DNA from: Peptoniphilaceae bacterium
GTDB lineage: Bacteria; Bacillota; Clostridia; Tissierellales; Peptoniphilaceae
Assembly: GCA_028723425.1 (NCBI GenBank)
Contig: JAQYEZ010000026.1
Coordinates: forward strand, 1-42,423
Direction of reading: 5' to 3'
DNA length: 42,423 nucleotides
Below are positions 26,649 through 31,412 of the stretch, piece by piece. Position 1 is the stretch's first letter. Each line of letters starts with the position of its first letter. Under the pieces are notes generated by a model. The model was not told where the DNA came from and ran no database searches. It saw only the letters and a program-made list of their open reading frames with translations. Both the position numbers and the translations under genes were made by a program.

Positions 26649-26996
26649 TTAATAGTTAACTTTTTCTTTAACTTTAGAAGCCTTACCTTGACGATCTCTA
26701 AGATAGTTAAGTTTTGCTCTTCTAACTTTACCACGTCTTACTATTTTGAAAGCTTCTAGTCTTGGTGAGTTGTATAGGAAGGTTCTTTCTACGCCAACAC
26801 CATAAGAAATTCTTCTTAAAGTGAATGATCTGTTAATTCCACCTTCTTTGATACTAATTACAGTACCTTCGAAGTCTTGTAATCTTGTTTTATCTCCTTC
26901 TTTGATTCTGTATGATACTCTTAGAGTATCTCCAACTCTAAAATCGTAATTATCTTCACGTAATTGTTCATTTTCAATCTTTTTGATTAAATCCAT
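26649..26996 (-). CDS. rplS: 50S ribosomal protein L19
   Basis: Large-subunit protein at the 30S-50S interface. The sequence is strongly conserved: FRVGDTLRVSYRIKEGDKTR, FEGTVISIKEGGINRSFTLR, RISYGVGVERTFLYNSPRL and the basic RRGKVRRAKLNYLRDRQGKA tail. 115 residues. The start at 26996 lies inside the 3' end of trmD (23-bp overlap), and AAGGAGG sits within trmD about 6 nt before it. Confidence 0.97.
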   Translation of the reverse strand: MDLIKKIENEQLREDNYDFRVGDTLRVSYRIKEGDKTRLQDFEGTVISIKEGGINRSFTLRRISYGVGVERTFLYNSPRLEAFKIVRRGKVRRAKLNYLRDRQGKASKVKEKVNY

Positions 26997-27690
26997 TTCT
27001 ATCCTCCTTGTTGCGGTATTTATCGTATAAGTCTTTCCTAACTCTTTTGGTTTTTTCTAGACTATTTTTTTTGTTCCATTGTTGAATAAGTTTGTGATTG
27101 CCACTGGTTAACTCTTGTGGCACCATATATCCTCTGAAGTTTCTTGGTTTTGTGTACTCGTCATTTTGTAATAGTATATCATAATGACTATCTGTTGTAA
27201 GAGATTGTTCATTTCCAACAACTCCATCTATAAATCTTGAAATTGTATCAAGAAAAACCATGGCTGGGATTTCCCCACCTGTTAATACATAATCTCCTAT
27301 TGATATTTCATAGTCTACATAGTGATTTGTAATCCTTGCATCTATTCCTTCATAGTGACCACAAAGTATTACTAAATCTTTAAAGTCTGCAAATTTGATT
27401 GCTGTTTTTTGGTCCAGGACTTTGCCTGCAGCAGACATAAAGACTACTTTGGATTTTTGGCTTTTGACATCCATGATAGCATCATAGATAGGCTGTGGAG
27501 TCATAAGCATTCCCGCTGCTCCTCCATAAACTGTATCGTCAACCTTTTTGTGTTTATCCTTAGTATAATCCCTAATATTTACTATATCAATTTTTAGCTT
27601 TCCACCTTGTATTGCCTTACCAATTACTCCATAAGTTTCTAGAAAGTCAAAAGCTTCAGGAAATAAGGTTAGTATTGTTATTTTATTCAT
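26974..27690 (-). CDS. trmD: tRNA (guanine37-N1)-methyltransferase
   Basis: SPOUT-class enzyme that makes m1G37 in tRNAs reading CNN codons and prevents frameshifts. The trefoil-knot SAM site is seen in ILCGHYEGID and EISIGDYVLTGGEIPAMV. N-terminal KITILTLFPEAFDFLETYGVIGKA is canonical. 238 residues. It overlaps rimM by 8 bp and rplS by 23 bp. Confidence 0.96.
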   Translation of the reverse strand: MNKITILTLFPEAFDFLETYGVIGKAIQGGKLKIDIVNIRDYTKDKHKKVDDTVYGGAAGMLMTPQPIYDAIMDVKSQKSKVVFMSAAGKVLDQKTAIKFADFKDLVILCGHYEGIDARITNHYVDYEISIGDYVLTGGEIPAMVFLDTISRFIDGVVGNEQSLTTDSHYDILLQNDEYTKPRNFRGYMVPQELTSGNHKLIQQWNKKNSLEKTKRVRKDLYDKYRNKEDRNGFNQKD

Positions 27691-28171
27691 AATCCTCGAA
27701 GTCTTTTACTTCTATTTTTTTGTTATTTAGGTCAATTTTTTTCACTGTAGCTTTTAAGGCAGGAAAATATACTTCTTTACCATAAATAGTTTCTATTACA
27801 AAGATATCATTTGGATAAACTTTGGTAATAACTTCTTTTATATAGCCTATTTTTTTATCCTCTTGGTAAACGTCCAAGCCCTCAAGGTCAAAAATAAAGT
27901 ATTCATCTTCTTTTAGGTCCATCAAATCCGCTTCATCGATAGTAAGTTCGTGTCCAATAAACTTACTAACCTCATTGATATCATCGTAACCTTCAAGTTT
28001 TATTATATAAAAATCTTTTTGCTTAAAAGAATTTTCAATTATTACTTCTTTATCATCCAAATAAAGTTTTGATCCTTTATTGAATCTATCTTCATTATCA
28101 GAAAATGATTTTATTTTTAAATTCCCCTTGATTCCTTGTGTCCTTAAAATTTCAGCTACCAATATTCTCAT
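27683..28171 (-). CDS. rimM: 16S rRNA processing protein RimM
   Basis: Assembly factor for the 30S head, binding S19. The N-terminal RimM domain (VAEILRTQGIKGNLKIKS) and the C-terminal PRC-barrel (about 90-162) are both recognisable. 162 residues. Its ATG overlaps the stop of khpA by 4 bp, and its end overlaps trmD by 8 bp. In Bacillus subtilis ylqD lies between khpA (ylqC) and rimM; that gene is absent here. Confidence 0.9.
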   Translation of the reverse strand: MRILVAEILRTQGIKGNLKIKSFSDNEDRFNKGSKLYLDDKEVIIENSFKQKDFYIIKLEGYDDINEVSKFIGHELTIDEADLMDLKEDEYFIFDLEGLDVYQEDKKIGYIKEVITKVYPNDIFVIETIYGKEVYFPALKATVKKIDLNNKKIEVKDFEDYE

Positions 28172-28392
28172 ATTTTGATATTAACCTTAACATTTTCTTT
28201 GATGGCGCAAGATCTCGCTATTGTTCTAATTGAGTTTATTATATTGCCACCACGGCCGATAACACGACCCTTGTCTTTTTCTGCTACGTAGATAGTGATA
28301 TTTAATTCGCCATTATTTTCTATTTCTTCTATAGAAACAGCTTCTTTATCTTCTACTAATTCTTTTACTATAACTTCAATTAATTCTTTCAT
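28168..28392 (-). CDS. khpA: KH-domain RNA-binding protein KhpA
   Basis: Small RNA-binding protein of 74 residues (YlqC). Its single KH domain has the GRVIGRGGNIINSIR loop with the GxxG motif that contacts RNA. KhpA pairs with KhpB (EloR/Jag) in other Firmicutes to control cell elongation and RNA levels; khpB is not in this window. It lies 9 bp after rpsP and overlaps rimM. Confidence 0.92.
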   Translation of the reverse strand: MKELIEVIVKELVEDKEAVSIEEIENNGELNITIYVAEKDKGRVIGRGGNIINSIRTIARSCAIKENVKVNIKI

Positions 28393-28401
28393 AATCTTTA
28401 C

Positions 28402-28647
28402 TTATGCTAAAACATCATTGTCATTGAATAGCTTTTCAACTATAGATGTTGGTTTTGCACCGTTTTTTATCCATTGTTTAGCTTTTTCATTGTCAACTTT
28501 AAATACTTTTGGCTTGCTAATTGGATTATAATAACCAATTTCTTCGATAAATTTACCATCTCTAGCTCTTCTAGAGTCTGCAACAACCACTCTATAGAAT
28601 GGTTTTTTCTTTTGTCCCATTCTTTTTAATCTAATCTTTACTGCCAT
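28402..28647 (-). CDS. rpsP: 30S ribosomal protein S16
   Basis: Small-subunit protein of 81 residues. [42 protein letters not shown] and the C-terminal ALKWIKNGA-like segment (here [12 protein letters not shown]) are unmistakable. AGGAGG lies 6 nt before the ATG. Position 12 bp after ffh is the standard arrangement. Confidence 0.97.
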
Positions 28648-28659
28648 ATTTTCCTCCTC

Positions 28660-30003
28660 TTACTTAAAGAAAGGCATCTTAAATCTTTTGCCCATTCTTT
28701 TTGATTTTCCTTGTAAATTTGTCACTGTCTTCATCATTTTTTTGAGTTCTTTAAATTGCTTCAATAATTTATTAAGCTCTTTGACTTCAACTCCAGAACC
28801 TTTTGAGATTCTATCTTTCCTAGATTTACCAATTATCTCAGGTTTTATTCTCTCTTCTTTAGTCATAGAAGAAATTAATGCCTCAATCTTAACAAATTCA
28901 TTTCCGTCAAGATTGATTCCCTTTAGCATTTTTGAGTTTACTCCAGGAATCATAGCTAAAAGATCTTCCAAAGGACCCATGTTTTTGATTTGCTGAATTT
29001 GTTGTACGAAATCATCCAAAGTATAAGATTGGTTTCTAAGCTTTTCTTCCAACTCTTTGGCATCTTTTAAGGAAACTTGTTGTTCAGCCCTTTCTATTAG
29101 AGATAGAACATCTCCCATTCCCAAAATCCTCGAAGCCATCCTTTGAGGATGAAAAGGCTCTAGATCATCAAGTTTTTCACCTGTACCTACAAATTTGATT
29201 GGTTTTCCCACAACTTGTCTAATTGATAGAGCAGCTCCGCCTCTAGCATCGCCATCAAGTTTTGTAAGAATTACACCAGTAAAATCAAGATAATCATCAA
29301 AAGTTTTGGCAACATTTACAGCTTCTTGACCTGTCATTGCATCAACAACCAAGAGAATTTCCTTTGGTTTTACAGCTTCTTTAATATTTTTAAGCTCATT
29401 CATAAGTTCATCATCGATTTGTAATCTACCTGCTGTATCTAGGATTACAACATCGTGATTATTGCGCCTTGCATACTCTTTTGCTTCTAGTGCAGTTTGA
29501 ACTGGGTCTTGTTTTCCCCTTTCAAAAACTTCTACTTCTGCCTTTTGACCTACTACCTTTAATTGGTCTATGGCTGCTGGCCTATAAATATCAAGAGCTG
29601 CAAGCATAGGGTTTCTACCTTCTTTTTTTAGCTTTCTAACTAATTTTCCTGAGTGGGTAGTTTTACCTGAACCTTGTAGACCAACCATCATAACCATATG
29701 AGGGGTTGAGCCTTGCAAGTCAAGTTTAGAATTTTCTTTTCCCATAAGATTGGTAAGCTCTTCGTTAACAATCTTGACTACCATTTGGCCTGGAGATAGA
29801 GATTCCATGACTTCAACTCCCATAGATCTCTCTTTAACTGTTTTTACAAAGCTTTTTACAACCTTGTAATTAACATCAGCTTCCAAAAGTGAAAGTCTTA
29901 TCTCTCTCATTGCCTCGTCAATGTCTTTTTCGCTGAGTTTTCCTTTTCCAGTAAGCTTTGCTAAAGAATTTTGCAATTTTTCAGAAAGGTTTGAAAAAAT
30001 CAT
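28660..30003 (-). CDS. ffh: Signal recognition particle protein Ffh
   Basis: GTPase that binds signal peptides and 4.5S/scRNA and delivers ribosomes to FtsY. The N domain (1-85), the G domain with GLQGSGKTTHSGKLVRK (G1), AALDIYRPAAIDQL, DTAGRLQIDDELM (G3) and TKLDGDARGG (G4), and the methionine-rich M domain (about 300-447, with PGVNSKML and a basic end) are all present. 447 residues, normal. It lies 11 bp after ylxM in the same operon. The SRP RNA is not in the window. Confidence 0.97.
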   Translation of the reverse strand: MIFSNLSEKLQNSLAKLTGKGKLSEKDIDEAMREIRLSLLEADVNYKVVKSFVKTVKERSMGVEVMESLSPGQMVVKIVNEELTNLMGKENSKLDLQGSTPHMVMMVGLQGSGKTTHSGKLVRKLKKEGRNPMLAALDIYRPAAIDQLKVVGQKAEVEVFERGKQDPVQTALEAKEYARRNNHDVVILDTAGRLQIDDELMNELKNIKEAVKPKEILLVVDAMTGQEAVNVAKTFDDYLDFTGVILTKLDGDARGGAALSIRQVVGKPIKFVGTGEKLDDLEPFHPQRMASRILGMGDVLSLIERAEQQVSLKDAKELEEKLRNQSYTLDDFVQQIQQIKNMGPLEDLLAMIPGVNSKMLKGINLDGNEFVKIEALISSMTKEERIKPEIIGKSRKDRISKGSGVEVKELNKLLKQFKELKKMMKTVTNLQGKSKRMGKRFKMPFFK

Positions 30004-30014
30004 ATTTACACATC

Positions 30015-30338
30015 CTAAATTCTTTCTAGTATCATATCTAACTTATCAATTGCTTCTTTATCATTTGAACTTTCTACCAATTCTCTAATTTCCGATAAAT
30101 CAGCCCTTAGCTTTTCACGTTTTGAAAGTAGAGAAAGCTCTTTTTCAAACTCAAACAATTTGTCAACTGATCTTTGAATCATATCTGAAATAGCCTGTTT
30201 ACTCTTATTATTATTTTGAGCTATCTCGTTTAATGATAGATCTTCATTGTAGTAGCAATTTATTACATCTCTTTGCTTGTCATTTAACAAGGCTTTGTAG
30301 ACATCAAATAATTGCCCTATTTCCACTAATTTTTCCAT
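30015..30338 (-). CDS. ylxM: YlxM/UPF0122 helix-turn-helix protein
   Basis: Conserved 107-residue protein always found before ffh in Firmicutes; it binds Ffh or its RNA in some species. The helix-turn-helix resembles sigma factor region 4: LLNDKQRDVINCYYNEDLSL, then NEIAQNNNKSKQAISDMIQRS. It is first in the operon, and its promoter (30426-30454) is flanked by two 19-bp dyads, so it might regulate its own operon, although that is only inference. Confidence 0.93.
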   Translation of the reverse strand: MEKLVEIGQLFDVYKALLNDKQRDVINCYYNEDLSLNEIAQNNNKSKQAISDMIQRSVDKLFEFEKELSLLSKREKLRADLSEIRELVESSNDKEAIDKLDMILERI

Positions 30339-30400
30339 ATATCACCCTAATTTCTTATTTAAAATGATACTTATCGATTTATGTAGCCATAAATTCTGGG

Positions 30401-30419
30401 GTCAAGTTTTTTACTTGAC
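30401..30419. promoter_or_regulatory. 19-bp dyad B just downstream of the ylxM transcription start
   Basis: GTCAAGTTTTTTACTTGAC has perfect 7-bp arms (GTCAAGT/ACTTGAC) and is preceded by GGG at 30398-30400. It covers about +1 to +20 of the ylxM transcript. It is near-identical to dyad A. Confidence 0.65.
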
Positions 30420-30425
30420 TATAAG

Positions 30426-30454
30426 AGTATACTATGAATTCTCATAGCTGTCAA
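30426..30454 (-). promoter_or_regulatory. Promoter of the ylxM-ffh operon
   Basis: On the minus strand exact TTGACA (30454-30449), 17-bp spacer, TATACT (30431-30426). The spacer holds a further short inverted repeat, CTATGA/TCATAG (30432-30447). The -35 hexamer lies inside dyad A. Confidence 0.8.
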
Positions 30455-30468
30455 GTATTTTTGTTGAC
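30450..30468. promoter_or_regulatory. 19-bp dyad A over the -35 of the ylxM promoter
   Basis: GTCAAGTATTTTTGTTGAC, followed by CCC at 30469-30471. Same form as dyad B: GTCAA, 9 bp, TTGAC. The two dyads are mirror images about 30434.5, with centres 49 bp apart. Confidence 0.65.
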
Positions 30469-30503
30469 CCCAAAAAGTTAAAATTTAAGTAATTTCCCTG
30501 TAT

Positions 30504-31412
30504 TTATTTTTTTATAAGTCCTTTCTTTTTAAGTAAAAATAGACTTGTAATAATCAATGAAACTTCTACTATAGTGCAGAGTAAACTTGCTTCTATTCCA
30601 AAACTACCACCGGTAATTAAATCTGATCCCAAAAGACTAGTTCTAAAGATGCTAGCTTTTATAATAGGTGATCCTGATACAGATATTCCAAATATATTTC
30701 CTTGAATCATATTCCAAAAAGAATGGGCACCTGCTACTATCCAAATTGAATCTTTCAAATAAAATAGTAGTGAATAAGCAAGACCTGATAGAAAAAGATT
30801 TATAAGTGCTATTAAATTTACGCTATCATTGCCTATATGAAGGGCTGCAAATATCAAGGCATTAAATAATATAGAAGATTTTACAGAGAAAAATGCCGTA
30901 AAACCATTCATAAAAAGCGACCTACAAATTAATTCTTCACAAAAGCCTTGAATAATCCATCCTAAGGTAAATAATATGAGATATTTAATATTTAAACTTT
31001 TATTTAACCTAAGACTTGCCTTATTTAAGACAAAGGCCATCAAAACTACAAAGCCTATTTGGAAAAAACTAATTATTATGCCTTGACTATAATCCCTAAG
31101 AGCATTCTCTTTTCTAAGCCCAAGGGAAAAATTAGACCTATTTAAGTATTTTTTTGCTAAAATCAGACTAATTATTAGGGTAAAAACTCTAAAATTTAAG
31201 GAAATTATATTAAATATATCTGATCTAAGAAGACTAGCCTTATTTATAAAATCAAAACCAAATATAAGACCTAATAGTATAAGAGAAATTACTTCTCCTA
31301 TAAACATAGTCCCTACTACCAATACTATGTATAGAAAAATATTAGGCTTTAGCCTACTTGTCAGTGCTTCTTGTCTACTTTTTGAAATCGTCTTATTATC
31401 TAAAAACCTCAT
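30504..31412 (-). CDS. CPBP-family intramembrane metalloprotease
   Basis: Membrane protein of 302 residues with about eight transmembrane segments, of the CAAX protease/bacteriocin-processing (Abi) family. The conserved boxes are CEELICRSLF (EExxxR), FAALHIGN (FxxxH) and AHSFWNM (HxxxN), which form the metal-binding active site. Family members process prenylated peptides or bacteriocins or give bacteriocin immunity; there is no bacteriocin gene nearby, so the substrate is unknown. AAAGGA lies before the ATG. Its transcript is separated from htrA by a terminator. Confidence 0.85.
   Translation of the reverse strand: MRFLDNKTISKSRQEALTSRLKPNIFLYIVLVVGTMFIGEVISLILLGLIFGFDFINKASLLRSDIFNIISLNFRVFTLIISLILAKKYLNRSNFSLGLRKENALRDYSQGIIISFFQIGFVVLMAFVLNKASLRLNKSLNIKYLILFTLGWIIQGFCEELICRSLFMNGFTAFFSVKSSILFNALIFAALHIGNDSVNLIALINLFLSGLAYSLLFYLKDSIWIVAGAHSFWNMIQGNIFGISVSGSPIIKASIFRTSLLGSDLITGGSFGIEASLLCTIVEVSLIITSLFLLKKKGLIKK

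Follow-up and report, generated by a model that had tools for sequence, protein, structure and literature searches.

Paired dyads at the ylxM-ffh promoter as conserved candidate operators for YlxM

We analysed the ylxM-ffh promoter of a Peptoniphilaceae bacterium on contig JAQYEZ010000026.1 (assembly GCA_028723425.1; the whole 42,423-nucleotide stretch is hereafter the window), where two dyads of the form GTCAA-N9-TTGAC (N, any base) lie at a single promoter. The presence of a conserved operator element at ylxM across the sampled phylum is well supported, and the dyads are probably operators for YlxM, a putative dimer of which would repress its own operon and with it ffh, which encodes the GTPase of the signal recognition particle (SRP). 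We strongly infer that YlxM is the binder, presumably as a dimer, and from promoter geometry infer repression as the outcome. An earlier sequence-only reading of this DNA had described a dual operator at this promoter; that observation is right but understates the extent of the element.

Read along the minus strand, the promoter region consists of the distal dyad O1, the -35 hexamer, a 17-bp spacer, the -10 hexamer, 6 bp, the proximal dyad O2, ylxM (from 30338) and ffh. The TTGAC of O1 (30450..30468, GTCAAGTATTTTTGTTGAC; minus strand, GTCAACAAAAATACTTGAC) supplies all but the last base of the -35 hexamer TTGACA (30454-30449), which together with the -10 hexamer TATACT (30431-30426) forms a promoter scoring 11/12 to consensus. 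O2 (30401..30419, GTCAAGTTTTTTACTTGAC; minus strand, GTCAAGTAAAAAACTTGAC) begins 6 bases past the -10 and is therefore placed at about +1 to +19, an estimate from promoter geometry. The dyad coordinates, the 49-bp separation of their centres, and the assignment of one dyad to the exact -35 and of the other to the transcript start all agree with the sequence-only reading. The exact motif occurs only twice in the 1,907,548-bp genome, both times at this promoter (reversed control, 1 site). With 2 mismatches allowed, the window held 22 matches where 19.6 were expected, which is no enrichment, so that the exact pair carries the weight.

Two other parts of that reading, GGG on the outer sides of the dyads and a third dyad in the promoter spacer, are present in the window strain but were rejected as operator parts. 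Among the 27 Anaerococcus pairs listed, GGG/CCC flanks both outer sides only in the window, and the spacer dyad (6-bp arms) gave p = 0.14 against shuffles in the window and p values of 0.1-1.0 in the other 26 pairs, being neither conserved nor above chance. A mobile element with 76-bp TGGGG...CCCCA inverted ends was also considered and rejected: the next best genome match was 20 bases long (E 0.03), with target-site duplication judged by eye only. In the window strain, read-through RNA could fold into one long hairpin through the outer arms GGGGTCAA...TTGACCCC (30398-30471).

Conservation of the dyads upstream of ylxM in relatives had been set beforehand as a test, and it was found throughout the genus Anaerococcus, to which named relatives sharing the element in a public genome scan assign the window genome. 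The ylxM gene was present in 61/61 genomes, 31 of them Anaerococcus, and the dual pattern matched 28 of these 31 exactly, with a separation of 49 bp (48 in G026). Two more genomes (G023 and G017) keep this separation with a single mismatch in one dyad each, and in the last (G022) the contig begins next to ylxM, so the full upstream region is lacking; the pair is thus present in 30/30 testable Anaerococcus genomes, which supports the dual-operator form (an alternative count gives 28/30, as a 160-bp window cuts off L023 and L032). The half-sites are invariant and the 9 inner bases variable. Moreover, the distance from O2 to ylxM varies from 10 to 135 bp while the O1-O2 separation hardly changes, so that pair and promoter are conserved together as one unit.

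The other outcome that the sequence-only reading named as refuting, a motif spread over the genome, did not occur either: the strict form GTCAAG-N7-CTTGAC has 43 sites in the 31 Anaerococcus genomes, 41 of them at ylxM (reversed control, 0). The dual pattern matched 32 of 130 family genomes (28 Anaerococcus plus G094, G098, G130 and G131; control, 0), and among 391 class genomes G400 was the sole match outside the family (control, 1); all 33 places from these two scans fall in the 300 bp before a YlxM open reading frame (ORF). A public scan of 84,980 species genomes returned 91 dual-pattern stretches; for 31 of the 80 listed, a YlxM ORF again follows within 300 bp. The remaining 49 were judged by look rather than gene by gene, and many of them look like repeats in Bacillus and Bacteroidetes. 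In Bacillus sp. EB01 and Neobacillus, repeats (L256, L257, L284, L309, L312, L301, L311) hold a pair of GTCAA-N9-TTGAC dyads at a distance of 52 bp, some of them arrayed in tandem, and look like an unrelated repeat family. In one genome of Clostridiales Family XIII (Gx485_bin216), three loci (L259, L277, L295) show the dual dyad with no YlxM ORF within 300 bp and may be a repeat or a larger regulon.

Beyond the genus, a perfect dyad was found upstream of ylxM in 89 of 96 family members (95 of other genera and G026), with a spacer of 9 in 78 and of 10 in 10 of the 95. In this rest of the family the dyad is mostly the one near +1; the ten N10 genomes have it farther from the gene, judged by eye to be on the -35. 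At the order level, 23 of 24 genomes have a perfect GTNAA-N9-TTNAC, and 17 of the 24 sites read GTCAA...TTTAC. Beyond the order the usual spacer is 10, with a perfect site in 28/29 genomes of the class sample and 27/30 of the phylum top-30. For the widest comparison, 60 phylum genomes were hand-picked, one per family label, from the better-scoring YlxM matches (58 from 187 genomes, 2 from the class-level search), and upstream windows were taken from the start of the protein match rather than from a verified start codon. The dyad TGTNAAG-N7/8-CTTNACA is perfect in 49 of these 60 (shuffle mean 0.55) and present with at most one mismatch in all 60 (shuffle mean 10.65); at the same loci there are 56 perfect sites in 9,600 bases of upstream sequence versus 5 in 129,246 bases downstream. 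Across the phylum sample the dyad lies on the -35, near +1, or at both.

When one mismatch at most is allowed per pair, dyads separated by 44-56 bp are found again in 17/96 family, 3/24 order, 5/29 class, 12/30 phylum top-30 and 11/60 one-per-family genomes (shuffles, 0.0 in each set); the dual arrangement is therefore ancient or was repeatedly made, and it is most regular in Anaerococcus. In Bacillaceae, the proximal dyad occurs in 5/5 named genomes, chosen because the public dual-pattern scan had matched them at other loci, and 4 of these also have a distal dyad with TTGACA. The spacer is locked to 9 or 10 among perfect sites, and N4/N5 spacer signals were discarded, since in the genus, class and phylum cases inspected most were sub-matches lying within those very sites.

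These shuffle and downstream controls contradict an origin of the dyads in chance, in a repeat family or in a terminator of the upstream gene, as do the two exact sites in the genome and a terminator scan that listed no terminator at the dyads. Such an origin is therefore extremely improbable, despite the terminator-like hairpins, seen by eye, that contain the dyad in two genera of the family. In these genera (g7, loci L157 and L170; g53, loci L128, L129, L132 and L163), the dyad sits inside a longer hairpin, which in g7 is terminator-like and follows the upstream gene, and one sequence may there serve as both terminator and operator.

The dyads might instead act as RNA, as a leader hairpin to which YlxM binds or which governs translation or decay. 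O2 would be part of the transcript and is able to fold, and a passage in PMC8546722 reports that YlxM binds SRP RNA in Streptococcus mutans. A stable fold is predicted for the minus strand of 30503-30339 (-44.2 kcal/mol, z -6.2), but this stretch includes O1, which is untranscribed from the window promoter. Pairing of the third base between the arms exceeds independence in the one-per-family (36/56 versus 22.8), class (23/31 versus 14.8) and phylum top-30 (19/32 versus 13.2) sites, an excess that a symmetric DNA operator would give too. Against a hairpin, O1-type sites fall on the -35 and are not part of the transcript; 18 of the 24 order sites (6 paired versus 7.4 expected) and 20 of the 56 one-per-family sites have an unpaired base 3; the spacer of perfect sites is 9 or 10, with no freely varying loop; and at the Rfam gathering score transfer RNA alone matched in the window, with no leader RNA family at the dyads. 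Because base 3 is unpaired in about a third of the one-per-family sites and some sites are untranscribed, we favour an operator and consider the RNA explanation quite unlikely.

A DNA operator could also be bound by a different repressor unlinked to the operon, such as a stress regulator, and genomes without ylxM bear on this. Of the genomes without a YlxM match, the 4 of the family and 8 of the 10 of the class were left aside. Thirteen genomes without a match were searched for Ffh, and after removal of three with no full-length Ffh and one with a truncated YlxM, nine were left, in none of which a perfect dyad was found within 400 bp upstream of ffh. Within one family label the contrast is telling: G667 has neither ylxM nor dyad, while five other genomes of its label have ylxM, among them G595 with a one-mismatch operator. 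In G594 (L378), a truncated YlxM-like ORF covering part of the YlxM profile lies directly before ffh, with no dyad.

Two points qualify the link between ylxM and the dyad. Of the 9 genomes, 5 have a one-mismatch dyad in the 400 bp before ffh (shuffles, 1.6), and the nine span five family labels and thus amount to few independent cases. The matched 160-bp window gives 1 of 9 (G648, on the -35) versus 0.6 in shuffles, which leaves the odds as they were. The distant one-mismatch sites of G528 and G678 look like a shared stretch of preceding coding sequence. An unlinked repressor would be compatible with a two- to threefold increase, with fructose, of an S. mutans cluster containing Ffh and YlxM (described in a passage of PMC12077213), and a binder is not identifiable from sequence alone. 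However, the dyad goes with ylxM in the sampled families and in its perfect form is absent from the nine ylxM-less ffh promoters, 41 of the 43 strict Anaerococcus sites stand at one operon, and the half-sites match the recognition helix of YlxM. We thus regard an unlinked repressor as unlikely, and YlxM itself, one of the two controllers of SRP synthesis proposed in the sequence-only reading, as the favoured candidate.

Each half-site amounts to a -35 hexamer whose third base is free, TTNACA (wide sets, CTTNACA; order and family set, TTGAC), and the helix-turn-helix of YlxM is homologous to sigma region 4 (PF04545 match). We compared residues in 238 of 269 YlxM proteins, dropping those with no perfect site, with both spacer types or with a length outside 70-180. 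Glutamine stands where sigma70 has its base-3 contact E585 in 235 of the 238; E585Q is a published change that relaxes third-base reading (PMC2613000), and the YlxM glutamine fits the loose third base seen in the wide sets. Position 19 is T in 106/106 N10 proteins and S, N or T in N9 proteins, and position 51 differs too, mostly Ser against Tyr or His; both positions are possible dimer or DNA contacts. Coevolution of YlxM and operator over spacer 9 versus 10 is confounded by phylogeny, and no evidence was drawn from it.

The same resemblance would be expected if the dyads were only extended -35 elements or double sigma-A contacts with no dedicated regulator. Yet O2-type sites come after the -10, where a -35 is useless, the spacing is fixed at 9 or 10, the third base is relaxed in the wide sets, and several of the ylxM-less ffh promoters retain -35 and -10 (by eye) without a perfect dyad. 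Sigma-A contacts alone are therefore very improbable.

Mechanistically, a YlxM dimer would read two inverted, -35-like TTNACA half-sites, GTNAA and TTNAC being separated by 9 or 10 bp. At O1 it would hide the -35 from sigma-A region 4 by direct competition, and at O2 it would cover and block the start site, so that occupancy of both is predicted to repress ylxM-ffh and the genes behind (rpsP, rimM, trmD and rplS, by eye). As with autogenous repressors, the putative operator overlaps the promoter of its own operon and is tied to the ylxM gene; YlxM, first in the operon, would limit its own transcription and that of ffh, holding SRP protein in check. Both Ffh and SRP RNA are bound by the YlxM of S. 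mutans, so a homeostatic loop could, speculatively, be closed if SRP titrates YlxM. It is even possible, if short of probable, that YlxM is a two-faced sensor of SRP assembly in Gram-positive bacteria, held in the particle while Ffh and SRP RNA are in excess and otherwise a free dimer on relaxed -35 half-sites that competes with sigma-A and shuts off ylxM-ffh. If so, SRP stoichiometry and the downstream ribosomal genes would be coupled to transcription, in a loop spanning the phylum, through an orphan sigma-4 domain. A conserved operator here also suggests a route from a detached sigma region 4 to a repressor, through relaxed reading of one -35 base and dimerisation.

The genes concerned all lie on the minus strand of the window. 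The putative binder is encoded by ylxM (30015..30338), which matches PF04297 (E 6.7e-24; 84.5 bits against a curated cut-off of 22.7) and Sigma70_r4 PF04545 (E 7.5e-9), and ffh (28660..30003), which as a query retrieves Ffh in other genomes, follows directly. The same neighbour is found downstream in 29/29 class, 30/30 phylum top-30 and 60/60 one-per-family genomes. The probable remainder of the transcript (26649..28647) comprises rpsP, a KH-domain protein, rimM, trmD and rplS, named by eye from translations; passages in PMC10100781 and PMC8637298 describe a similar operon in Bacillus subtilis. Upstream on the same strand (30504-31412) is a CPBP-type (Rce1-like, PF02517) membrane protease.

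The literature leaves open how the amount of SRP protein is set in bacteria. According to a passage in PMC2704228, control of ffh at the level of transcription or translation had not been described as of 2009. A B. subtilis study that excluded promoters with DBTBS-listed regulators chose PylxM as a constitutive sigma-A promoter (a passage in PMC7042180), and a table in PMC5344976 includes YlxM (MPN424) among Mycoplasma pneumoniae proteins, mostly DNA-binding, with no site given there. The open-access matches listed, for the broadest searches the top 5-15, show neither an operator ascribed to YlxM nor control of ffh by this protein. A conserved operator at PylxM would give the YlxM helix-turn-helix a function and would make SRP autoregulation directly testable in B. 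subtilis.

Several known systems resemble the one proposed here in part. The YlxM/p13 protein of S. mutans (UPF0122, PF04297) shares the protein family, the gene pair with ffh and a putative helix-turn-helix annotation, but differs in that it is described as binding Ffh and SRP RNA and modulating GTP hydrolysis (passages in PMC8546722, which cite Williams 2014 and give no DNA target). The ffh RNA motif of Alphaproteobacteria is likewise a conserved element before ffh, but a passage in PMC2704228 presents it as a structured RNA hairpin with stem covariation, in another phylum, whereas the dyads lie partly outside the transcript. Sigma70 region 4.2 at the -35 has the same kind of helix-turn-helix, aligned recognition residues and the half-site TTNACA in common with YlxM, which differs by the glutamine for E585, by being a separate small protein and by its inverted pair of half-sites in place of one -35. 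The KorA and ArdK repressors differ as plasmid proteins with no SRP link, a comparison that leaves operators aside. CIRCE/HrcA and CtsR boxes are operators in Gram-positive promoters with other consensus sequences and regulons, CIRCE being TTAGCACTC-N9-GAGTGCTAA and the CtsR box consisting of direct heptad repeats; neither dyad matches the former, and the dyads are inverted rather than direct repeats, in line with the sequence-only reading, which had set both aside. Overall, autogenous repression at a dyad is of a known kind, while the system, the relaxed reading of a -35 half-site by a free sigma-4 domain, and the SRP link appear to be new.
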